Translations under genes and position numbers: made by a program
In this document: piece after piece, positions 2 through 15,474 of the stretch
How the letters are laid out: every line of letters begins with the position of its first letter
How positions within the stretch are numbered: position 1 is the first letter of the stretch
Source of the DNA: Kofleriaceae bacterium
GTDB taxonomy: Bacteria; Myxococcota_A; Polyangia; Haliangiales; Haliangiaceae
DNA: 64,000 nucleotides
NCBI GenBank assembly: GCA_018058095.1
Contig: JAGPCO010000004.1
Location: 62,001 to 126,000, forward strand
Direction of reading: 5' to 3'
The notes under the pieces: model-generated
Told to the model about the DNA's origin: nothing
Database searches by the model: none
Seen by the model: the letters and a program-made list of their open reading frames with translations, nothing else

Positions 2-256
2 TTGTGGGAGGCGCTGGTGACCCCCTCCGACGACGCCTGGGCCGCGGGCCTCGACGTGCTGGCGGTGACGCCGCTGCCGGTCCGGGCCCTGACCACGGTC
101 GCGCCCCCGGGCACCGCCGCGCCCATCGCCGAGCTGGGGCTGACCCTGCAGCGCCAGGCGACCGCGGCCCGCACCGCCGGAGATGCGCCAGCGCGCGCAC
201 ATGCGTACGGCCAGATGCTCCTGACCTGCGCGCGCTGCCACCAGCTGGTGAAGTGA
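2..256 (+). CDS. C-terminal part of a haem-motif (CxxCH) protein, 5' truncated
   Basis: The reading frame is open from the left edge, so the true start lies outside the window and only about 84 residues are visible. Near the C-terminus is CARCH, a CxxCH motif of the kind that binds haem c covalently, six residues from the stop. The preceding part is helical and alanine-rich with no other recognisable domain. A haem motif this close to the C-terminus is typical of small periplasmic cytochrome-like proteins of Myxococcota. The stop codon is followed directly by the structured repeat at 257-375. Function is unknown beyond probable haem binding. Confidence 0.55.
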   Translation: MWEALVTPSDDAWAAGLDVLAVTPLPVRALTTVAPPGTAAPIAELGLTLQRQATAARTAGDAPARAHAYGQMLLTCARCHQLVK

Positions 257-2875: not shown

Positions 2876-2940
2876 GGCGGCCGGCGCCGTGGCAAGATGG
2901 CTCGATGTCGCGTCACGCCGATTCCCTCGAGGCCCTCCCT
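2876..2940 (+). repeat. duplicated leader block, copy 1 (copy 2 at 3341-3405)
   Basis: A 65-bp block covering the last ~30 bases before the EF-hand start codon and the first ~12 codons recurs 465 bp downstream at 3341-3405 with only a few changes. The conserved non-coding part (GGCGGCCGGCGCCGTGGCA then AGATGG) is as well kept as the coding part, so the duplication carried the control region with the gene. Confidence 0.8.
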
Positions 2941-3264
2941 ACGCACCAGGCCGAGGTCGAGGCGTCACCGCGGTCGGTCCCGGCGGTCGCCCAGTCAGCC
3001 GAGGAGGAGATCAAGGGCAAGGTGCGCGCGCTGGTGGCCCGCCACGGCGGGGACATCCGGACCGTGTTCGATGCCTACGATCGCGACGGCGATGGCTCCA
3101 TCGACGGCGGTGAGCTGACCTCCTTCCTGAAGGATTCCGGCATCGGCAATCGCCTGACCCGCGGCATGTACGCCAGCGCCATCATCAGCTACGGCGACCA
3201 GAACGGCGACGGCAAGATCGACTTCTACGAGCTGATTCACATGTCAGCCGGCTGGATGCCGTGA
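2905..3264 (+). CDS. small EF-hand calcium-binding protein, paralogue 1
   Basis: This 119-residue protein has two EF-hand loops: DRDGDGSIDGGE (about residues 55-66) and DQNGDGKIDFYE (about 95-106). Both keep the acidic residues at positions 1, 3, 5 and 12 expected to bind calcium. There is no signal peptide, so a cytoplasmic calcium sensor or buffer is likely. Its N-terminus (MSRHADSLEALP) and 30 bases of leader are repeated in the next gene, showing a tandem duplication that included the 5' region. The C-terminus (SAGWMP) differs from the paralogue. The target is unknown. Confidence 0.85.
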   Translation: MSRHADSLEALPTHQAEVEASPRSVPAVAQSAEEEIKGKVRALVARHGGDIRTVFDAYDRDGDGSIDGGELTSFLKDSGIGNRLTRGMYASAIISYGDQNGDGKIDFYELIHMSAGWMP

Positions 3265-3369: not shown

Positions 3370-3753
3370 ATGTCGCGTCACGCCGATTCGCTCGAGGCCC
3401 TCCCTGCGCACGAGTCCGAGGTCGAGGCGGCACCGCGGCCAGGGGCGGCGATGGACGGGACGGTCCTGGCGGCCAACGAGTCGGCCGAGGAAGAGATCAA
3501 AGGCAAGCTGCGCGCGCTGCTGGCCCGCTATGGCGGCGACATCCAGAACGTGTTCAAGGCCTACGATCGCGACGGCGACGGCGCCATCGACGGCGGCGAG
3601 TTGACCTCGATGCTCAAAGAGGCCGGCATCGGCAGCGGCCTGACCCGCGGCATGTACGCCAGCGCCATCATCAGCCGCGGCGACAAGGACGGCGACGGCA
3701 AGATCCAGTGGGACGAGCTGCAGAGCCTCGTCGGCGGCAAGAAGCTGGCGTGA
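3370..3753 (+). CDS. small EF-hand calcium-binding protein, paralogue 2
   Basis: This 127-residue protein is the tandem paralogue of the gene at 2905. Its EF-hand loops are DRDGDGAIDGGE (about residues 65-76) and DKDGDGKIQWDE (about 105-116), both with canonical ligands. It differs by an N-terminal insertion of about 8 residues (..MDGTVLAANES..) and a different C-terminal tail (LVGGKKLA). The start is fixed by the duplicated leader. It lacks a signal peptide. The stop codon overlaps the GTG start of the next small gene (GTGA), so the two may be translationally coupled. The two EF-hand copies have diverged in tail sequence but not in metal ligands. Confidence 0.85.
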   Translation: MSRHADSLEALPAHESEVEAAPRPGAAMDGTVLAANESAEEEIKGKLRALLARYGGDIQNVFKAYDRDGDGAIDGGELTSMLKEAGIGSGLTRGMYASAIISRGDKDGDGKIQWDELQSLVGGKKLA

Positions 3754-4437: not shown

Positions 4438-4460
4438 CTCGGCGCGGCGGGCGGGCGGTC

Positions 4461-4560
4461 ATGCCGCCGTCGACGTCGATGGTGCGGGCGCCTACGTAGT
4501 CGCACTCCAGCGCGAACCGCACCGCGACCCACAGGTCCTCGGGCAGGCCGATGCGACCGA
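4461..4560 (-). pseudogene. truncated duplicate of the 3' end of the adjacent reductase gene
   Basis: These 100 bases repeat 4610-4709, the last ~33 codons of the phaB-like gene, 149 bp away in the same orientation and with only a few differences in the middle (CCTACGTAG against TTGAAGTAG). Translated on the minus strand the fragment reads VGRIGLPEDLWVAV...RTIDVDGGM before the frame is lost; the terminal GF-stop is missing. It lacks the nucleotide-binding and catalytic parts and cannot be functional. It probably arose by local duplication or by slippage after an insertion. Confidence 0.8.
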
Positions 4561-4599
4561 CGCCTGAGATGACGCCGCGACCGGGGCGGCGCGGCGCGG

Positions 4600-5367
<768 letters not shown>

Positions 5368-5480: not shown

Positions 5481-6584
5481 TCAGTGCGGCTGGGCGGTCG
5501 GGGCGACGTGGGCGCCAGCGGCGCCGAGCTGCTGGCTCAGCCATGTCGCCAGGGCCGGGTACATCTCACGGGCCGCGCGTGAGCCGACCACCGCGCCGAC
5601 GTGGCCGCCGGGCACGGACAGCAGCTTGACGACCGCGCTGCCGACGTGGTCGGCCAGGGCGTTGGCGGCCGCCGCCGGACAGATGTTGTCGCGGTCGGCG
5701 GTGATGATCATCGTCGGGCAGGTGATGTCGCCCAGGCGGGCTGGGCGCCCGCCGGGCCGGTGGGTGCCGGCGAGCAGGCGGTTGCCCTGGTACAGCTCGC
5801 CGATGTACGTGCGATAGGCCTCGCCCGGGAACGGGATGTTGTCGCTGGCCCAGATCTCGAGCGCGCGCATGCCATCCCACGCCGTCCGGTTGGACATGGT
5901 GTCGGGCATCGACGCCCACTTGGCCAGGTCGATGGTGGGACGCAGGGCCGTGAACCCGGCCTGCATCTGGGTCGGCGCCACGTTGCCGGCGTCGGCCACC
6001 GCGCCGGCGTCGAACCACGACGAGTCGACCATACGCGCCAGCATGCCACCGCGCGCGAAGTCGATCGGCCCGGCCAGGTTGACCAGGGCGGCGATCTCGT
6101 CGGGGTGCTGCGCGGTGTAGATCGCCGACAGCGTGCCGCCCATGCAGTAGCCGAGCAGGCCGACCCTGCTGGCGCCGGTCTCGCGGCGAACCCGCCGCAC
6201 CATGCGCGCCAGCCGGGCCAGGACGTCGTCCCAGCTGCGGTAGCGGTCCTCGTCCTCGGGGGTGCCCCAGTCGAGGCACCACACGTCGAGGCCGGCCTCG
6301 ACCAGCGCGCCGGCCACGCTGGCGCCGGGCCGCAGGTCGAGCACGTACCAGCGGTTGATGAGCGAGGGCACCAGCAGCACCGGGGTGGTGACGCTGGGCG
6401 CCGCGCCGTCGGCGCGGCGGAAGTGGAGCAGCTCGGCGGTGCCGTCGCGCAGGACCACGTCGCGCGCGGTCGGCATCAGCGCCGGGTCGGGCCGGACCTG
6501 GTCGGCGCCGGTGAGGAAGCCGAGGGCGGCCTGCCAGGCCGACGCGATCGACCGCGCCGGCTCGGTGGGATCGATCGCGGCCAT
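5481..6584 (-). CDS. phaC: class III-type PHA synthase PhaC (first copy)
   Basis: A 367-residue protein of class III PhaC length (about 355). The lipase-like box is GYCMGG with the nucleophile C147; D299 (TADRDN) and H328 (PGGHVG) complete the triad, at nearly the positions known for Allochromatium PhaC (149/302/331). [14 protein letters not shown] and LDWGTPEDED are family hallmarks. It polymerises (R)-3-hydroxyacyl-CoA at the granule surface. It lies 4 bases behind the phasin-like gene, so the two are one transcript from the promoter at 6943-6971. Class III enzymes normally need PhaE; no full-length PhaE is present, but each phaC here has a small helical companion gene. Confidence 0.9.
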   Translation of the reverse strand: MAAIDPTEPARSIASAWQAALGFLTGADQVRPDPALMPTARDVVLRDGTAELLHFRRADGAAPSVTTPVLLVPSLINRWYVLDLRPGASVAGALVEAGLDVWCLDWGTPEDEDRYRSWDDVLARLARMVRRVRRETGASRVGLLGYCMGGTLSAIYTAQHPDEIAALVNLAGPIDFARGGMLARMVDSSWFDAGAVADAGNVAPTQMQAGFTALRPTIDLAKWASMPDTMSNRTAWDGMRALEIWASDNIPFPGEAYRTYIGELYQGNRLLAGTHRPGGRPARLGDITCPTMIITADRDNICPAAAANALADHVGSAVVKLLSVPGGHVGAVVGSRAAREMYPALATWLSQQLGAAGAHVAPTAQPH

Positions 6585-6942: not shown

Positions 6943-6992
6943 ACCCTAGGCATCGGCCCCGGCCGTGTCAACGCGAAATTGTTGCGATGCAG
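6943..6992 (-). promoter_or_regulatory. sigma70-type promoter with PhaR-type operator for phasin-phaC-phaB
   Basis: On the minus strand TTGACA (6966-6971) is followed after exactly 17 bases by TAGGGT (6943-6948). The element CTGC-ATC-GCAA occupies 6982-6992, inside a wider palindrome TTGTTGC-N3-GCAGCAA (plus strand 6979-6995). CTGC-N3-GCAG is the palindrome reported for PhaR of Rhodobacter. Over 54 bases this site matches the plus-strand promoter at 7703-7756 at 41 positions, with no gaps. The predicted start is about 15 bases upstream of the GGAGG ribosome site. Confidence 0.75.
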
Positions 6993-7017
6993 CAAAATCG
7001 CAGACAGGGTATTGGAA

Positions 7018-7674
7018 TCACTTGGCGCGCGGCTTTCGCTTTGCGCCAGGCCGGCCCAGGTCCGGGGCCGCGGCGGCGCGCCACCGTTTGAACTCCTCAA
7101 ACTCGCGCCGGAGCGCCACGTCGTCGTCGTCGGTGCGCGAGCTCGCGCCGGCGGCCGGGTCGTGGCTTCCGCTCGGCCCGGGCCCCGGCCCGGATGCTGC
7201 GCTGCCGTATGCGGGGCCGGATCCCGGGCCCGGCCCGCCGAAGCCGCCGGCGAACTGGGCGAACGGCTGCGCGAACGGCGAGCCCATCCACATGCGGCCG
7301 AGCGCGTCGGTGGCGGCGAGCGGGAGCTGCGCCAGCGGGCCCAGCCCGGGCACCGCCTGCACGCCGCGCCGGGCCTGCAGGTAGAGATCGAGCGCGGAGG
7401 TGACGTACCGGCTGAAGAACTCGCCGAGCGCGTCGTCGCCGAGGCGGATGAGCTGGTTGAGCAGGGCGGCCGGCAGCAGGCGGGACGAGCCACCCTCGAG
7501 GATGAGCTGGGCCAGGGTGGCCTGGGTCAGGTCCTCGCCGGTCTTGGCGTCGACCACCCGGACCTCGGCCCCGGCCCGGATCTTGGCGCCGAGCTCATCC
7601 AGCGTCACGTACCGGCTGTCGACCGTGTCGTAGAGGCGCCGGTTCCCGTACTTCTTGATCAGCAGGCTGGCCAT
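7018..7674 (-). CDS. phaR: PHA synthesis regulator PhaR
   Basis: A 218-residue protein starting MASLLIKKYGNRRLYDT. The N-terminal ~60 residues are the PHA/PHB accumulation DNA-binding domain (YGNRRLYDT..SRYVTLDEL), followed by the PHB accumulation regulatory region (LTQATLAQLILE..LLP..LLNQLIRLGDDAL). The C-terminal third is Gly/Pro-rich with a basic tail. An upstream in-frame TTG would add 20 residues but overlaps the opposite promoter, so ATG 7674 is preferred. PhaR senses PHA granules and represses phasin genes. The operators on both sides of the gene (6982-6992 and 7707-7717) fit repression of the two divergent operons and of phaR itself. Confidence 0.9.
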   Translation of the reverse strand: MASLLIKKYGNRRLYDTVDSRYVTLDELGAKIRAGAEVRVVDAKTGEDLTQATLAQLILEGGSSRLLPAALLNQLIRLGDDALGEFFSRYVTSALDLYLQARRGVQAVPGLGPLAQLPLAATDALGRMWMGSPFAQPFAQFAGGFGGPGPGSGPAYGSAASGPGPGPSGSHDPAAGASSRTDDDDVALRREFEEFKRWRAAAAPDLGRPGAKRKPRAK

Positions 7675-7702
7675 CGGCGCGAACCGTACCCGTGAACGCC
7701 AC

Positions 7703-7756
7703 TTTGCTGCAACGCAAAAGAAACGCGTTGACAAGGCCCGGCCACCTGCCTAGTGT
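7703..7756 (+). promoter_or_regulatory. PhaR-type operator and sigma70-type promoter of the plus-strand PHA/envelope operon
   Basis: CTGC-AAC-GCAA (7707-7717, within TTTGC-N6-GCAAA) lies 21 bases before the first base of TTGACA (7728-7733), which is followed by a 17-base spacer and TAGTGT (7751-7756). Operator-to-promoter distance and spacer length equal those of the minus-strand phasin promoter. The transcript would start about 30 bases before ATG 7793. This ties the lipoprotein/outer-membrane genes downstream to PHA control. Confidence 0.75.
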
Positions 7757-7792: not shown

Positions 7793-8746
7793 ATGACCAT
7801 GACCCCGACCTTCGCACTGCAGCAATCCGGGTCCAGTCGCCCTTCGTTCCCCGGGCTCGGCGCGCTGGTGCTGGTGCTAGTGCTGGTGGCGGCGTGTGGC
7901 GAGGGTGGCGACGGCGCCCGCTGCGAGCGGGACGAGCAGTGCGCGTCGGGGTTCTGCCGGGCCGACGGCACCTGCGCGCCCGAGGGCCCGGACGCCGGCG
8001 CCGGCGTCGACGCCGATCCGGCCCAGCCCGACGGCGCGACCGGCGCGTGTGCGCCCGACAACGACCGCATCGTGTCGCGCGACGAGGTGCCGCTCGAGGC
8101 CGGGCGTAGCGCGCGCTTCCGGGTCGCCCTCGACGCCACCATCGACTCGGCTGGCACCATGATGGTCGACGGCACCCGGCGCTGGGCCCTCGGTCAGACC
8201 CTGGCCGGCGACGCCGACGTCGAGCTGACCCTGCTGGCCCCGGCCGGGCAGTGGTGGGCGCCCGAGTTCCCGGCCGCGACCTACGCCGCGCCGCTGTCGG
8301 CCGAGTCTGACCTCCTCGGGGTGTTCGAGGTGAGCGCGACCCAGGTCCGCCTGCTCGGCGTCGTCAGCCCGAGCGCCGGCCTGACCCGGACCGAGCTGAG
8401 CTACGACCCGCCGGTGCCGGTCCTGCAGCTGCCGCTGACCACCACCTCGCGCTGGATGGTGAGCTCGACGGTGTCGGGCCTGGCCACCGGCGTGTTGTCG
8501 GTCTACAGCGAGGACTACACCTTCGCGGTCGACGCCGTCGGCGCGTTGACCACGCCGTACGGCGAGTTCCCGGTGCTGCGGGTCGCCAGCGACCTCGAGC
8601 GCACCGTCGGCGTGTTGACCACGCCGCGTCGGAGCTTCGCGTTCGTGGCCGAGTGCTTCGGCACCGTCGCCACGGTGGTGTCGCAGGACTTCGAGGACGG
8701 CCGCGAGTTCACCGACGCGGCCGAGGTGCGGAGGCTGGCGCCGTGA
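7793..8746 (+). CDS. lipoprotein, paralogue of the one at 11487
   Basis: A 317-residue lipoprotein: the lipobox ..LVLVAAC follows a Leu/Val-rich signal, then a short cysteine-rich repeat (CERDEQCASGFC..GTC) and an acidic linker. ATG 7799 is an alternative start with better spacing from the weak AGGA site. From residue ~85 the sequence aligns end to end with the lipoprotein at 11487: both share PD.D..(I/V)...E(V/L)P, a middle P.PVP.L.LPLT segment, and an FxFECFG...RRLA ending. I do not recognise the fold. As first gene behind the PhaR-type promoter, and within an operon ending in phaC, it may be a periplasm-facing component of PHA turnover; that is inference. Confidence 0.7.
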   Translation: MTMTPTFALQQSGSSRPSFPGLGALVLVLVLVAACGEGGDGARCERDEQCASGFCRADGTCAPEGPDAGAGVDADPAQPDGATGACAPDNDRIVSRDEVPLEAGRSARFRVALDATIDSAGTMMVDGTRRWALGQTLAGDADVELTLLAPAGQWWAPEFPAATYAAPLSAESDLLGVFEVSATQVRLLGVVSPSAGLTRTELSYDPPVPVLQLPLTTTSRWMVSSTVSGLATGVLSVYSEDYTFAVDAVGALTTPYGEFPVLRVASDLERTVGVLTTPRRSFAFVAECFGTVATVVSQDFEDGREFTDAAEVRRLAP

Positions 8747-9783
8747 ACCCGCTCCGCGGCCAGCGCGCCTGGCGCGGCCTGCGCGGCCCGCTGCTGGTCC
8801 TCGCGCTCGCGCTGGCGGCCGGGTGCCCGCGCTTTCACGCCGGGCCGCCACCCGGCGCGCCGGCCACCGCCCGCTTCGTCGAGGTCGACGGGGTCGCCCT
8901 GCACACCCGTGTCGCCGGGTCTGGGCCGGCCGTGCTGTTCATCCACGGCTACGCGTCGTCGATGGAGATGTGGCGCGGCGTCTTCGAGCGGGTCGCGCGC
9001 GACCACCGCGCCATCGCCGTCGACCTCAAGGGCTTCGGCTGGAGCGCCCGCCCGCCCGGCGACTACTCGCCGCCGGCGCAGGCCGCGCTGGTGTGGAAGG
9101 TGCTCGACAAGCTCGGGGTCGACGACGTCACCATCGTCGGCCACTCGTGGGGCTCGTCGGTCAGCCTGGCCATGGCGCTGTCGGCCCCGGCGCGGGTCCG
9201 CCGCATCGCCCTGTACGACGCCTACGTGTACGAGGAGCAGGTCCCGAGCTTCTTCCGCTGGGCCCGGCTCGGCGGCGTCGGCGAGGTGCTGTTCGGGCTG
9301 TTCTACCGGCAGCGGCTCGACGAGCGGGCGCCGCTGGCCTATCACGACCCGCGCTTCGTGACCCAGCGCCGGGTCGACGCGCTCGAGCGTGAGGCGGCGC
9401 GGCCCGGCACCACCGCGGCGGCCCTGGCGGCGGCGCGCGGGCAGCGCTTCGCGGCGGTCAGCGCGCGCTACCGCACGATCAGCGCGCCGACCCTGCTGCT
9501 GTGGGGCGCCGAGGACGAGGTCACGCCGCTGCGGTTCGGCCAGCGGCTGGCCGGCGAGCTGCCCGACGCCCGCCTGGTCGTGTTCCCGCAGTGTGGCCAC
9601 GTGCCGATGCTGGAGGCGCGGACCGCGTCGACGCGCGAGCTGCTGGCGTTCCTCGCCGCCGAGGCCGCGCCGGCGCCGGCGCGAGACACCGACGGGCAGG
9701 TCGCCCCGGACCGAGCCGTCTCGGACCCGGTCCCGGCGCCGTCGGATCCCGCTCCGGCGCCGAGCGAGCAGGTGACGCCATGA
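8743..9783 (+). CDS. lipoprotein alpha/beta hydrolase
   Basis: A 346-residue protein from GTG 8743, overlapping the previous stop (GTGA). The signal ends LALALAAGC, so it is lipid-anchored. The hydrolase domain shows FIHGYASSMEMW (oxyanion loop), GHSWGSS with the nucleophile Ser at about residue 138, GAEDEVTP (Asp) and CGHVPMLE (His). The last ~35 residues are a Pro/Ala/Asp-rich disordered tail. The family includes esterases, haloalkane dehalogenase-like enzymes and some oligomer hydrolases. Position in a PHA-controlled operon suggests an ester substrate such as hydroxyalkanoate oligomers, but this is not shown by the sequence. Confidence 0.8.
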   Translation: MNPLRGQRAWRGLRGPLLVLALALAAGCPRFHAGPPPGAPATARFVEVDGVALHTRVAGSGPAVLFIHGYASSMEMWRGVFERVARDHRAIAVDLKGFGWSARPPGDYSPPAQAALVWKVLDKLGVDDVTIVGHSWGSSVSLAMALSAPARVRRIALYDAYVYEEQVPSFFRWARLGGVGEVLFGLFYRQRLDERAPLAYHDPRFVTQRRVDALEREAARPGTTAAALAAARGQRFAAVSARYRTISAPTLLLWGAEDEVTPLRFGQRLAGELPDARLVVFPQCGHVPMLEARTASTRELLAFLAAEAAPAPARDTDGQVAPDRAVSDPVPAPSDPAPAPSEQVTP

Positions 9784-11486
9784 CCCGCGCGCGCCTCGCC
9801 ACGGCGGCGCTGGCCGGGCTGGTGCTGGCGCCGACGGCGCACGCCGACGAAGGCGCACCGCCACCGCCGGCGGCCGAGGCCACCGACGCGGCGGCCGACG
9901 ACCTGGCGCCACCACCCCGGACCCAGCTCGAGGCGTGGGACCTGCCGCCGGGCGCCGACCTGGCCGCCCTCGGCGCCGAACTCACGCCGCGTCGCTACGC
10001 CGCGCCGCGTGATCACACCGAGCTGGTGGTGACCGGCGCGCTGCGCGTGCGCGGCGTGGCCCGCTACAACCACGACCTCGACGCCGGCCTCGACGCCGCC
10101 GGCCAGCCGCTGTACCCGGTGCCGCCCGGCGGCGGGCAGTGGACCGACAGCGGCGACCTGCGGGCTCGCACCGACCTCGCGTTCTACGCCGCCGGCGTCG
10201 GCGTGGCGGTCAAGGCGCGCATCGACTGGCTCGACGACGTCGGGCTGGGCGCCGATCCGGTCGCCGGCACCGGCCGGGCGCCGACGCCGACGGTGTCGCC
10301 CGGACAACGCTCGACCCGGGCGGTCTCCATCGAGCGCGCGTGGGGCGAGGTGCTGACCCCGCTCGGCGTGCTTGCGGCCGGCCGGATGGGCGCGCACTTC
10401 GGCCTGGGCATGGTCGCCAGCGGCGGCGACTGCGACGACTGCAGCGGCGGCGACGCCGCCGACCGCCTGGCCTTCGTCAGCCCGCTGCTCGGTCACCTGG
10501 TGGCGGTCTCGTACGACCTGACCGCGTCGGGGCCGTTCACGGCCAACCGGGCCGAGGACGCGGTGATCGACGTCGAGCCGTCCGACGACGTCCGGACCTG
10601 GACCGGCGCCCTGCTGCGGGTGGCGGCGCCGGCGACCCGCCTGCGCCGGGCCGAGGCCGGGCGGCTCACGCTCGAGTACGCGGCCTACCTGACCCGGCGC
10701 ACCCAGGATCGCGACGTGCCGGCCAGCTACCTGCCGGTGGCCGGCACCGGCGTGGTCGACGGCGTCGGCCCGGGCGAGCTGGTCGCGCGTGGCTTCGTCG
10801 CCACCTCGGTCGGCGGCTGGCTGCGCGTGACCACGGCGCGCTGGCGGGTCGAGGCCGAGGTCGCCGCGCTGCGGGCTCGGGTGGCCCAGCCCTCGCTCAT
10901 CCCTGGCGTCGAGCTGACCCAGGCCGCGACCTCGCGCCAGCTCGGGCTGGCGGTGCAGACCGAGCTGCGCCTGGGCCCCGCCGCCGTCGGGCTCGACGGC
11001 GGGCTGGCCTCGGGCGACGACGCGCCCGGGTTCGGCGCCTTTCCGGAGCCCGGCGCGCCGGCGGCGGCGGCCGGGGCGCTCGACGGGCCGCAGGCGTCGT
11101 TCCCGCGCGACACCACCGTCGACAACTTCCACTTCCACCCCGACTACCACGTCGACCAGATCCTGTTCCGCGAGATCATCGGCACGGTCACCGACGCGGT
11201 GTACCTGCGGCCGCACGCGGCGGTGACCGTGCTCGACCTCGGCCACGGCAGGCTCGAGGCCGGCGCCGCGCTCATCGCCTCGTGGGCCATGGCCGCGGCG
11301 TCGACGCCGAGCGGCGCGGCCGGGCTGGGCGTCGAGGTCGACCCGTGGCTGGCCTACCGCAGCCGGGACGGCCTGCGGGTGGCGGTCGAGGCCGGCGTGT
11401 TGCTGCCCGGCCCGGGCTTCGATCGGCCCGGGCAGGCCGCCGGCACCGCGAGCGCGCTGCGAGCGCGGGTGGGGTTTCACTTTTAG
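9780..11486 (+). CDS. outer-membrane beta-barrel protein, TIGR04551-like
   Basis: A 568-residue protein from ATG 9780, which overlaps the preceding stop (ATGA). It has a signal peptide (cleavage after THAHA-like ..PTAHA) and alternating hydrophobic segments along its length, ending in ..ALRARVGFHF with a terminal Phe, as outer-membrane barrels do. The segment ERAWGEVLTPLGVLAAGRMGAHFGLGM followed by GGDCDDCSGGDAADR strongly recalls the myxobacterial TIGR04551 family of uncharacterised outer-membrane proteins. It is flanked by two paralogous lipoproteins, which may be its periplasmic or surface partners. Transport or adhesion are both possible. Confidence 0.7.
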   Translation: MTRARLATAALAGLVLAPTAHADEGAPPPPAAEATDAAADDLAPPPRTQLEAWDLPPGADLAALGAELTPRRYAAPRDHTELVVTGALRVRGVARYNHDLDAGLDAAGQPLYPVPPGGGQWTDSGDLRARTDLAFYAAGVGVAVKARIDWLDDVGLGADPVAGTGRAPTPTVSPGQRSTRAVSIERAWGEVLTPLGVLAAGRMGAHFGLGMVASGGDCDDCSGGDAADRLAFVSPLLGHLVAVSYDLTASGPFTANRAEDAVIDVEPSDDVRTWTGALLRVAAPATRLRRAEAGRLTLEYAAYLTRRTQDRDVPASYLPVAGTGVVDGVGPGELVARGFVATSVGGWLRVTTARWRVEAEVAALRARVAQPSLIPGVELTQAATSRQLGLAVQTELRLGPAAVGLDGGLASGDDAPGFGAFPEPGAPAAAAGALDGPQASFPRDTTVDNFHFHPDYHVDQILFREIIGTVTDAVYLRPHAAVTVLDLGHGRLEAGAALIASWAMAAASTPSGAAGLGVEVDPWLAYRSRDGLRVAVEAGVLLPGPGFDRPGQAAGTASALRARVGFHF

Positions 11487-12335
11487 ATGTCGACCATGCT
11501 CCGCACCACCGCGCTGTCGACCATGCTCCGCACCACCGCGCTGTCGACCCTGCTGCTGGGCGGGCTGGGCTGCGTCGACAACACGACGCCGCCGGGCCAG
11601 CCGCCGCCGAGCGCGGCGGTCGGCTGCGTGCCCGACCGCGACGGCGTGATCACCGCGGCCGAGCTGCCGGTCGCGACCGACGTGGCGCTCGCGTACTACA
11701 CGTCGCCGGCCGGGGCGACCCGGACCATCGACCTCGCCGTCGCCGGCGACCCGCCGCGCTGGGACCTGTCGAGCGAGGAGCCCGACGACGAGCGGGTCGA
11801 TCTGGTCGCCACCCCCCTCGGCGCGCAGTGGTACGCCGACCAGTTCCCGGGCGGCCAGTTCGTGGCCGCGGCCGGGCCTGGCCTCGACGCCATCTATCAC
11901 AAGGACGACGCCGCGCTGTGGCTGCACGGCACCGCGTCGACCGAGCCGATGCCGGCCAGTGGCCGCACCCTGGTCCGCTACACCAGCCCGGTGCCGGCGT
12001 TGCGCCTGCCGCTGACGGTCGGCGACGTCGACCAGACGGTGGCGGCGATCTCCGACGGCGTGGTGCTCGGCCTGCCGTTCCTCGGCGAGGATCGCTACGC
12101 GGTCGAGGTGGTCGCGGCCGGGCGACTCGACCTGCCGTACGTGCGCTTCTCGCCGGCCCTGCTGGTGCGGACCCAGGTCGTGCGCGCCGCCAGCAGCGGC
12201 GGCGCCACCACCTCGCGCCGCAGCGCGTCCTTCCTGTTCGAGTGCTTCGGCGAGATCACCCGCGCCGACAGCCAGCCTGACGAACCCGCCGCCGACTTCA
12301 CCGTCGCGGCCAGCCTGCGCCGCCTGGCGCTGTGA
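11487..12335 (+). CDS. lipoprotein, paralogue of the one at 7793
   Basis: A 282-residue lipoprotein with lipobox LLGGLGC. The N-terminus is distorted by a perfect 27-bp in-frame tandem repeat, so MLRTTALST appears twice and three ATG codons (11487, 11496, 11523) could start the protein; the third gives a normal-length signal. The body aligns with the lipoprotein at 7793 (PDRDGVITAAELP, TSPVPALRLPLT, FLFECFGEI..LRRLA) but lacks its cysteine-rich linker. It lies directly after the barrel gene. The paralogues enclosing the barrel suggest an envelope complex. Confidence 0.7.
   Translation: MSTMLRTTALSTMLRTTALSTLLLGGLGCVDNTTPPGQPPPSAAVGCVPDRDGVITAAELPVATDVALAYYTSPAGATRTIDLAVAGDPPRWDLSSEEPDDERVDLVATPLGAQWYADQFPGGQFVAAAGPGLDAIYHKDDAALWLHGTASTEPMPASGRTLVRYTSPVPALRLPLTVGDVDQTVAAISDGVVLGLPFLGEDRYAVEVVAAGRLDLPYVRFSPALLVRTQVVRAASSGGATTSRRSASFLFECFGEITRADSQPDEPAADFTVAASLRRLAL
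11490..11543 (+). repeat. perfect 27-bp tandem repeat (2 units) in a lipoprotein signal sequence
   Basis: Two identical 27-base units, beginning TCGACCATGCTCC, sit at 11490-11516 and 11517-11543 and preserve frame. Each unit contains one ATG, so copy number changes the length of the N-region and the number of possible starts. Recent slippage is the simplest origin. Confidence 0.9.
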
Positions 12336-12664
12336 CCAACCTGACCGAGCCGACCCCGAAGGAGCACGTGATGATGAACGCCTGGGACATGTGGAAGAAG
12401 GGTTTCGCGGTGTGGGAGCAGACCACCGCCAAGTACCTCGAGCAGGTGATGTCGAACCCGGCCGTGCTCGGCCCGGCCGGCACCATGCTGACCGCGGCGA
12501 TGAAGACCAAGGCTGCGACCGACCGCGCCGTGTCGACCTGGTGGGCCACCATCGGCCTGCCGACCCGGCGCGACCAGGAGCGCTCGCTGCACAAGCTCAA
12601 CCAGCTCGAGAGTCGCCTGCTCGACCTCGAGGAGCGGCTGGCCGACACGGGCCGCGGCAACTAG
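12332..12664 (+). CDS. small phasin / PhaE-like protein
   Basis: A 110-residue helical protein; GTG 12332 overlaps the previous stop, but ATG 12371 (MMNAWDMWKKGF) is a possible start with an AAGGAG site just before it. The part NAWDMWKKGFAVWEQTTAKYLEQ and the C-terminal LPTRRDQERSLHKLNQLESRL with a heptad pattern resemble the C-terminal region of PhaE, the class III synthase subunit, and phasins. No signal peptide. It is two genes before phaC copy 2, mirroring the small gene before phaC copy 1. A role as synthase partner or granule coat protein is inferred. Confidence 0.65.
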   Translation: MTNLTEPTPKEHVMMNAWDMWKKGFAVWEQTTAKYLEQVMSNPAVLGPAGTMLTAAMKTKAATDRAVSTWWATIGLPTRRDQERSLHKLNQLESRLLDLEERLADTGRGN

Positions 12665-12706: not shown

Positions 12707-14362
12707 ATGGACGTTTCGACCTTGAACCTCGAGCTGGCACCGGCGCCGTGTGTGGTGCTGGAGCGCGCGCGTAACCACCCCGAGCGGATCCGGTTCCGGG
12801 TCCGGCGCGGCGAGGCCTGGCACGACGTCAGCTGGGGCCGGTTCGCCGACGAGCTGCGCGCGTGTACGCGCTGGTTGATCGACCACGGCCTGGTCCCGGG
12901 CCAGGTCGCCGCGGTGTACGCCGCCAGCTCGGTCGAGTGGGCGGTGGCGGCGCTGGCCATCCAGGCCGCCGGTGGCGTGCTGGTGCCGGTGTACCCGGCG
13001 TCGACCGCCGAGCAGGCCGGCTACGTGCTCGAGCACGCCGATGCCCGCGTGGTGTTCGTGGCCGGGCGCGAGCAGCGCGCGCGCCTGGGCGAGCTGCGCG
13101 CGCGCCTGCCGGCGCTGGGCGCGGTGGTCGCCATGGACACCCGCGAGCCCGCGGCCGACGCCGTGAGCTGGGGCGAGGTGCTGGCCGCCGGCGCCGCCGA
13201 TCGGGCCACGCCGGCGCTGGTCGACCAGCGCCTGGCCGCGGTCGACCTCGACGCGCCCGGCTTCATGCTGTACACGAGCGGCACCTCGGGGCCGCCCAAG
13301 GGCGTGCCGCTGACCCACCGCAACGTCGGCGTCAACGCGCGCGATTGGCTGGTCAACAACAGCCCGGGCATCGAGGATGGCGACCGCGACCTGCTGTGGC
13401 TGCCCTTCTCGCACATCTTCGGCTTCGGCGAGCTGTGCCTTGGCAACACCCTGGGCTGGGTCAGCGCGCTGGTGTCACCGTCGGAGGTCATGCCGACCTT
13501 CGCCGAGGTGGCGCCGCACGTCTTCATGAGCGTGCCGGCGTACTGGGAGAAACTGGCGCGCGCGGTGCTGGCCGAGCCGGGCTGCGCCGGCGAGGCCGTC
13601 GGCGCCGCCGCGCCGCCGGCGCTGACCGCGGCCCGACGCGCCGCGCTGGCGCGCCTGACCGGCGGCAACCTGCGCTTCGGCCTGTCGGGCGGCGCCGGCC
13701 TCAAGGTCGAGATCAAGGAGCTGCTGCGCGACTGTGGCCTGGTCGTCATCGAGGGCTACGGCCTGACCGAGACCTCGCCGACCCTGACCATCAACCACCC
13801 GCACGACTACCGGTTCGACACCGTCGGCCGGCCGCTGCCGTCGGTCGAGCTGCGCCTGGCCGACGACGGCGAGATCCTGGCGCGTGGCCCCAGCGTGTTC
13901 GCCGGCTACCACAAGGACCCGGCCGCCACCGCCGCCGCCTTCACCGCCGACGGCTGGTTCAAGACCGGCGACATCGGCCGCTGGACCGAGGACGGCTTCC
14001 TGCAGATCGTCGACCGCAAGAAGGACATCCTGGTCACCGCCGGGGGCAAGAACGTGCCGCCGGCCAACATCGAGGCCCGCTTCACCGACGATCCGGTCAT
14101 CGAGCGGGTGGTGGTGTACGGCGACGCCCGGCCCTACCTGGTGGCGGCGATCTGGCCGGTCGACGGGGCCGAGCCGGCGGCGATCGCGGCCCGGGTCGCC
14201 GCGGTCAACGCCCAGCTCGCCTCGTTCGAGTCGATCAAGAAGTTCTGGGTCGCCGACGAGCCGCTGTCGGTCGAGGCCGGCCTGCTCACGTCGTCGCTCA
14301 AGCTCAAGCGCAAGGCGGTGTACGAGCGCTACCGGGTTCGCTTCGAGGAGCTGTACGCGTGA
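12707..14362 (+). CDS. AMP-forming acyl-CoA synthetase (long-chain fatty acid-CoA ligase type)
   Basis: A 551-residue ANL-family enzyme. Motifs in order: [16 protein letters not shown] (P-loop, about residues 188-203), [10 protein letters not shown] (about 348-357), [22 protein letters not shown] (about 415-436) and [11 protein letters not shown] with the hinge region. It has a GGAGG ribosome site 6 bases before ATG. It activates a carboxylic acid to the CoA thioester with ATP. The domain order fits FadD15-like ligases. In this operon it probably supplies hydroxyacyl-CoA or fatty acyl-CoA to the PHA pathway or recycles hydroxy acids released from the polymer. It overlaps phaC copy 2 by 4 bases. 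Confidence 0.88.
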
Positions 14363-15474
14363 GCGGCGCGCGTGACGGCAAGGCGAGCGGGCGCGGGCCG
14401 GTGGCCAGCCTGGCCGCGTTGTGGCGGCGCAGCCGGACTGGCCTGCCCGCCGTCGGCCAGACCCCGGCCGACGTGGTCTGGAGCGAGAACAAGTGGCGCC
14501 TCCTGCGCTACCGGGCCAGCGCGGCGCGCCGGTTCCGCACCCCGATCCTGCTGGTGCCGTCGCTGATCAACCGCTGGTACGTGCTCGACCTGCAGCCCGG
14601 GCGCAGCTTCGCCGAGTACCTGGTGGCGCAGGGCCACGACGTCTTCATCATCGACTGGGGCACGCCGAGCGCCGAGGACCGCTTCCTGACCTGGGACGAC
14701 GTGTGTGGCCGCTACCTCGGTCGGGCCGTGCGCCAGGCCGCGCGCCACGGCGCCGACGGCGTGGTCCACCTGCTCGGCTACTGCCTGGGCGGCACGCTCA
14801 CCACCGTGTACACCGCGGCGTTCCCGGCCGAGGTGGCGTCGATGGTGGCGCTGGCCGCGCCGATCGACTTCGCGCAGGCCGGCCTCATGGCGACCTGGAC
14901 CCGCGCGCCTGGCTTCGAGGTCGGCGCCCTCGTCGACGGTTTCGGCAACGTGCCATGGCCGCTCATGCAGGCCTCGTTCCACCTGCTGCGGCCGACCCAG
15001 AACGCGGCCAAGGCGGTCGCCATCCTCGACCGCGCCTGGGACGACGAGTTCCTCGACGGCCTGCTGGCGACCGAGCGCTGGGGCAACGACAACGTGTCGT
15101 TCCCGGGCGCGTGTTACCGGCAGTACATCGACGACCTGTACCGCGGCAACAAGCTGGTGGCCGGCACCATGAGCCTGCTCGGCCGGCCGGCCCGGCTGGA
15201 GGACGTCGACTGCCCGCTGCTGGTGGTCAGCTTCGGCCACGACCACATCGTGCCGGAGGCGTCGGCCACCGCGCTGCTCGGCGCGGTGTCCAGCCCCGAC
15301 CGCGCCCACCTGTCGCTCGGCGGCGGCCACGTCGGCGCCGTGGTGTCGCGCAAGGCGGCGACCGGGCTGTGGCCGCAGCTGTCGGCGTGGTGGGCCGCGC
15401 GCGACGACGACGCCAGCCGGGGCCTGGGCGACGCGGTGGTCGACGCCGTGGCGCCGGCCCCGCCGCCGGCCTAG
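14359..15474 (+). CDS. phaC: class III-type PHA synthase PhaC (second copy)
   Basis: A 371-residue protein from GTG 14359 (GTGA overlap with the ligase stop). GYCLGG holds the nucleophile C142; D295 (GHDHIVP) and H324 (GGGHVG) complete the triad. [17 protein letters not shown] and [11 protein letters not shown] are shared with the first copy. Sequence divergence from it suggests different substrate preference or timing rather than recent duplication. It is last in the plus-strand operon. Its stop codon TAG is part of the CTAG that opens the 119-bp repeat, so the terminal hairpin of the repeat may act as the mRNA 3' end. Confidence 0.9.

Follow-up and report, generated by a model that had tools for sequence, protein, structure and literature searches.

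Does the PhaR-like protein encoded between two divergent PHA operons control both of them, and its own gene as well? The locus lies in a 64,000-nucleotide stretch of a Kofleriaceae genome (the window), and its features are collected in Table 1. PHA genes have been noted in myxobacteria (PMC11821767), and the literature searched, which covered few subscription journals, holds no study of a PhaR operator in myxobacteria or Myxococcota. The answer favored here, with a probability of about 0.85, is that a PhaR-like repressor controls the phasin-phaC1-phaB operon, the envelope-phaE-acs-phaC2 operon and itself, and that granule formation releases all three.

Table 1. Features of the phaR locus, in window coordinates.
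Feature	Position	Strand	Basis
phaB-like SDR reductase	4600..5367	-	PF00106, 169 bits
PHA synthase phaC1, class III PhaC-like	5481..6584	-	TIGR01836, 229.7 bits, below cut-off 365.3
Phasin-like protein, 110 aa	6589..6921	-	relatives have similar small proteins ahead of phaC1, elsewhere behind composite operator
-10 TAGGGT, phasin promoter, spacer 17	6943..6948	-	sequence; CCTAGGGT-like element equally placed in relatives
-35 TTGACA, phasin promoter	6966..6971	-	sequence; 15-16 from operator centre in 19/19 loci
Predicted PhaR-type operator TTGCTGCATCGCAACAA, phasin-phaC1-phaB promoter, centre about -51	6979..6995	-	0 consensus mismatches; 26.4 bits; 18 other loci
phaR (PhaR-B)	7018..7674	-	PHB_acc_N DNA-binding domain, weak PHB_acc domain
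Likely phaR -10 TACGGT, 8 nt before ATG	7683..7688	-	same promoter pattern in relatives
Likely phaR -35 TTGCAG, within operator 7704-7720	7707..7712	-	TTGnnn/TAnnnT pattern and PhaR-core overlap in relatives
Predicted PhaR-type operator TTGCTGCAACGCAAAAG, upstream of plus promoter	7704..7720	+	0 consensus mismatches; 23.1 bits; 27/30 loci
-35 TTGACA, lipoA...phaC2 promoter	7728..7733	+	sequence; kept in relatives
-10 TAGTGT, lipoA...phaC2 promoter, spacer 17	7751..7756	+	sequence; relatives TAGCGT, TAGGGT, similar
lipoA, putative lipoprotein, distant YmcC-like fold	7793..8746	+	Foldseek 3fzx, E 2.2e-4, low TM-score
Weak downstream operator CCTTCGCACTGCAGCAA, in lipoA first codons, 105 bp from upstream operator	7809..7825		5.5 bits, 2 mismatches
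Alpha/beta hydrolase, N-terminal signal by eye	8743..9783	+	PF00561, 120 bits
Outer-membrane beta-barrel, TIGR04551-like	9789..11486	+	TIGR04551, 287.5 bits, cut-off 300
lipoB, lipoA paralogue	11487..12335	+	about 30% identity to lipoA
PhaE-like protein	12332..12664	+	PF09712, 22.8 bits, below cut-off 25.7
Acyl-CoA synthetase	12707..14362	+	PF00501, 222 bits
PHA synthase phaC2, class III PhaC-like	14362..15474	+	TIGR01836, 275.9 bits, below cut-off 365.3

Two promoters of one design

The earlier note had matched the two promoters at 41 of 54 positions, and this count is exact for the ungapped alignment of window positions 7703-7756 (plus strand) with 6996-6943 (minus strand). When the two intergenic regions were shuffled 3000 times, the best 54-mer had 31 identities, and the maximum among 2983 real segment pairs is 37, so that none of either set reaches the observed value. 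A chance likeness of two GC-rich intergenic regions is refuted by these controls and by the occurrence of the operator consensus at just two places in the genome (see below), and its probability is close to nil. The geometry given in that note also reads true on both strands: 21 bases from the start of CTGC-N3-GCAA to TTGACA, a spacer of 17, and a -10 element of the form TAG.GT; the coordinates likewise bear out its placing of phaR between the two promoters. Its inventory of promoters was sound for the matching pair, and missed the promoter of phaR itself and the weak downstream operator. A generic sigma-70 scan detects neither of the two promoters, because their GC-rich -10 elements match TATAAT at just 3 of 6 positions, yet the -35, the spacer and the -10-like element are the same in relatives.

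The plus-strand operon had been described as running from envelope genes to a second phaC copy, a fair label for a series of genes encoding lipoproteins, a hydrolase, a barrel, a PhaE-like protein, an acyl-CoA synthetase and PhaC2. The fold of the barrel is AlgE-like (Foldseek E 2.6e-12, from a structure model of moderate confidence). lipoA and lipoB, which flank the hydrolase and barrel genes, belong to no family in Pfam or NCBIfam; their products have in common a C-x-P-x-x-D-G-x-I-T-R-x-E-L-P stretch ahead of the YmcC-like beta domain. A role of the envelope genes in the uptake of acyl substrates for PHA would be a guess. On the minus strand, the small phasin-like protein has no Pfam match, and the 3' end of phaB carries a 120-nt tandem duplication (4442-4710, 90% identical, period 149) by which the last codons are repeated downstream. 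Elsewhere in the window, two adjacent genes for small EF-hand-like proteins (2905-3264 and 3370-3753) have near-identical N-termini (MSRHADSLEALP...) and are apparently a tandem duplication.

The operator palindrome and its conservation

The shared upstream element is better given as a palindrome of 17 bp centred on one base, TTGCTGC-ATC-GCAACAA at the phasin promoter and TTGCTGC-AAC-GCAAAAG at the plus promoter. The 17-bp consensus of Ralstonia eutropha PhaR, YTKNTGCRNYGCANMAR (PMC12849132), is found without mismatch at exactly two places in the 7,565,629-base assembly, each on both strands, and these are the two promoters; its reversed control has no match in the same assembly. The motif footprinted for Herbaspirillum seropedicae PhbF, TGNTGCN3GCAA (PMC3206438), with its TGC-N3-GCA core, fits both window sites by direct reading. 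The Sinorhizobium meliloti 21-mer with AT-rich arms, WNWDDNYGCRNYGCRNHHWNW (PMC12542648), matches the phasin site fully, as its sole exact match in the window, and the plus site with 2 mismatches. The claim of a PhaR-type palindrome at both promoters is upheld by the first two motifs at both sites and by the third in full at the phasin site, and the element is supported as a PhaR-type operator, the predicted site of the PhaR-like protein. Two looser scans were rejected: at 2 mismatches the S. meliloti motif is too degenerate for the window (11 matches against 22 expected, no enrichment), and the first operator pattern, at 2 mismatches genome-wide, gives 16 matches beyond the two sites, the level of its reversed control.

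The relatives compared are Polyangia (Myxococcota), the close ones sharing the gene order phaB-phaC1-phasin ... phaR / lipoA-hydrolase-barrel-lipoB-phaE-acs-phaC2. At the plus promoter 27 of 30 loci have the operator together with TTGACA (or one base off), the palindrome centre lying 13-17 bp, mostly 14, before the -35. At the minus-strand, phasin-side promoter the combination of operator and TTGACA is present in 19 loci, centred 15-16 bp before the -35. In many relatives some 2 kb separate phaR from the phasin promoter and the operator is still present there, indicating that it goes with phasin and not with phaR. A matrix made from 44 sites of relatives, with the window sites excluded, gives the latter the scores listed in Table 1; the next best site in the 64 kb has 8.1 bits.

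A strict composite of TTGACA, a gap of 4-8 bases and the full palindrome was scanned over 240 genomes of the class and is present in 25, the reversed control being found once. Of these 25 genomes, 24 have a PF07879 gene, and in the other (G144), which is without one, the composite is 48 bases from a contig end, before a phasin-like ORF. By comparison of coordinates, 24 of the 29 composite matches are no more than 2.5 kb from a PF07879 gene, and several of those elsewhere precede genes of phasin-like proteins. Operators, spacing, conservation and linkage were all computed, and the conservation in relatives together with the linkage to PhaR genes supports the predicted joint control of both operons. 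Identity between the two window promoters goes past the operator and the hexamers, for example in CGCGTTGACA and GCCTAG, as would be expected, without any shared regulation, if one promoter region had recently been duplicated. Such an origin is very improbable, since each promoter carries its operator separately through the class, with differing spacings and flanks, which points to old elements kept by selection. In one relative (L148, G014:C244:7863-7892) a perfect operator-TTGACA composite stands before a gene like those for HMG-CoA synthase and ketoacyl synthase III, a possible further member of the regulon.

PhaR-B has 87 bits against PF07879 (PHB_acc_N, cut-off 25) and 20.1 bits (E 6.7e-4), under the gathering score of 27, against PF05233 (PHB_acc). 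Against TIGR01848 (PhaR) it is aligned over model positions 2-102 of 107 with 88.6 bits, which is below the equivalog cut-off of 109.45, and for this reason the protein is named PhaR-like. A comparison of its sequence with the PDB found no relative. A second PF07879 protein of the genome, PhaR-A (contig C100), has the higher PF07879 score (103.5 vs 89.6 bits), and the two paralogues occur together in nearly all relatives of the family, so that the sites might be read mainly by PhaR-A or by both in competition. This is unlikely, however, as the PHB_acc region is missing from PhaR-A, six genomes of the family show no convincing operator close to the PhaR-A gene, and the operators adjoin PhaR-B across the class. 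Of the two paralogues in these genomes, PhaR-B, not PhaR-A, is the likely granule regulator.

The phaR promoter and a second operator in lipoA

In 21 of 29 loci phaR has the pattern TTGnnn-16..18-TAnnnT close ahead of its start codon, mostly ending 5-8 bases from it, compared with 0.44% of shuffles. In relatives the -35 of this promoter (TTGCAG or similar) is also the start of the PhaR core TTGCAGTGCA at 15 of the 29 loci, against 0 of 9000 shuffles, and such an overlap would place PhaR in a classical repressor position. The operator of the phaR promoter is separate in most relatives, about 23 bp from that of the plus promoter. In the window the separate copy is gone and the phaR -35 (7712-7707) sits inside the plus-promoter operator, so that one operator here likely faces two divergent promoters, that of phaR and that of the envelope/phaC2 operon. 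Since the operator contains the phaR -35, autoregulation is predicted, as in other PhaR proteins. The -10 and -35 of phaR are both weak in the window, and the phaR mRNA is likely near-leaderless. In L050, L055, L060, L062 and similar relatives the lipoA start codon is about 6 bases after the -10 (TAGCGTGCCGCCATG); leaderless lipoA mRNAs in several relatives, and leaderless phaR mRNAs, are implied by the promoter positions.

Another site, of at least 5 bits, follows the plus operator in 21 of 27 loci. It lies 62-116 bp downstream, within the first codons of lipoA (its signal peptide) or shortly ahead of them, and a site of this strength is present in only 1.4% of comparable coding segments. The spacings cluster at 82-85 (about 84 bp, 8 helical turns), the others being 62, 65, 94, 102, 105 (the window) and 116; apart from 102, a clear outlier, they come close to multiples of 10.5, but the cluster reflects shared ancestry, so the argument from helical phase has few independent events behind it. 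In relatives the site is read in two reading frames with different amino acids, which indicates that the DNA itself is conserved. These sites suggest, tentatively and at somewhat less than even odds, that in this order of Myxococcota PhaR loops the operator at about -50 to the one in the lipoA signal-peptide codons, held on the same helix face (spacings near 63, 84, 94, 105 and 116 bp) independent of the amino acids, and that the barrel, the two lipoproteins and the hydrolase thereby join the regulon of the PHA granules, which would link storage with transport at the envelope. Looping between sites flanking the plus promoter is plausible for the relatives and uncertain for this genome. A literature search for PhaR looping gave nothing relevant, and for R. 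eutropha phaP1 a dimer-dimer contact between flanking PhaR sites has been proposed by its authors (PMC12849132). As the additional plus-promoter operator is conserved in relatives, the two operons may differ in the strength of their response, and the simultaneous derepression put forward in the earlier note is a prediction.

Proposed regulation and known PhaR systems

The 54-base design can be read as combining a PhaR operator with a strong promoter of the housekeeping type. The PhaR-like protein, whose gene lies between the promoters, would sit as a dimer on TTGYTGC-N3-GCARCAA just upstream of each -35, at about -51, where it would occupy the seat of the RNA polymerase alpha domains and hold the phasin-phaC1-phaB and envelope-phaE-acs-phaC2 operons low. 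The plus-side operator, holding the -35 of the divergent phaR gene, would also give negative autoregulation. When PHA granules form, PhaR would go to the granule surface and all three units would be derepressed together. In most relatives two dimers might clamp the plus promoter by way of the operator in the lipoA codons, possibly with a short loop; in this genome that operator is degenerate. What we infer from the sequence is that PhaR-B binds the sites, that it represses and does not activate, that granules release it, that the DNA loops and that the units are co-expressed.

A repressor is the most likely mechanism because the operator lies across the phaR -35 and because, at both operons, it covers the alpha-domain region upstream of near-consensus -35s, which argue for an intrinsically strong, repressed promoter. 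The nearly fixed distance from operator to -35 throughout the class (14-16 bp) would suit an activator too, and PhaR of R. eutropha, bound at an upstream site, can act as an activator of phaP3 (PMC12849132). PhaR could on this account activate one or both operons from about -51 through the same operators, with granules switching them off or altering one only. It is a rather improbable account, given that near-perfect TTGACA elements are unlike those of activator-dependent promoters, that an operator over the phaR -35 does not suit it, and that known phasin promoters with PhaR sites beside the -35 are repressed, PhaR leaving the DNA for the granule (PMC12849132, PMC12542648).

Repression by PhaR as proposed here has close counterparts. 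R. eutropha PhaR is a regulator linked to PHA granules, as suggested for PhaR-B, and its phaP1 target has the same 17-bp palindrome, with one site immediately before the -35 and a second, predicted one in the first ORF, all as in this locus (PMC12849132). The phaP1 promoter also has an extra site at the transcription start, whereas the conserved site here is at about -51 and none overlapping the -10 or the start of the phasin promoter is found in the window. Unlike at phaP1 (PMC12849132), the operator here is found at two operons, one of them with envelope genes, and overlaps the -35 of phaR. PhbF of H. seropedicae, whose motif fits both window sites, is autoregulated, as is predicted here, but this organism is a betaproteobacterium and its operator sits differently relative to the promoter (PMC3206438). 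S. meliloti AniA/PhaR likewise has a palindrome, with AT-rich arms and a 21-mer fully matched by the phasin site, and its repression is relieved by PHB, much as proposed here with granules; in contrast, it has about 50 candidate targets against 2 strict-motif places in this genome, and its phasin sites are paired around the -35 (PMC12542648). The Paracoccus and Rhodobacter PhaR proteins (CTGC-N3-GCAG) share the TGC-N3-GCA core and the phasin and phaR targets, while the outer arms here, TTG...CAA, are like those of betaproteobacteria.

Operator and regulator are of a known kind, and would be new for Myxococcota. The operator code of PhaR, familiar from alpha- and betaproteobacteria, would be widened to Myxococcota with a precise geometry, and two predictions are added: membership of a conserved envelope operon in the PHA regulon, and a single operator for the divergent promoters of phaR and of a target. 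Matrix matches of 20-31 bits are also present just upstream of PhaR-like genes on contigs of Acidobacteria (Terriglobia) and Desulfobacteraceae (L163, L164, L168, L169, L183, L184), so the code probably reaches past Myxococcota and Proteobacteria.
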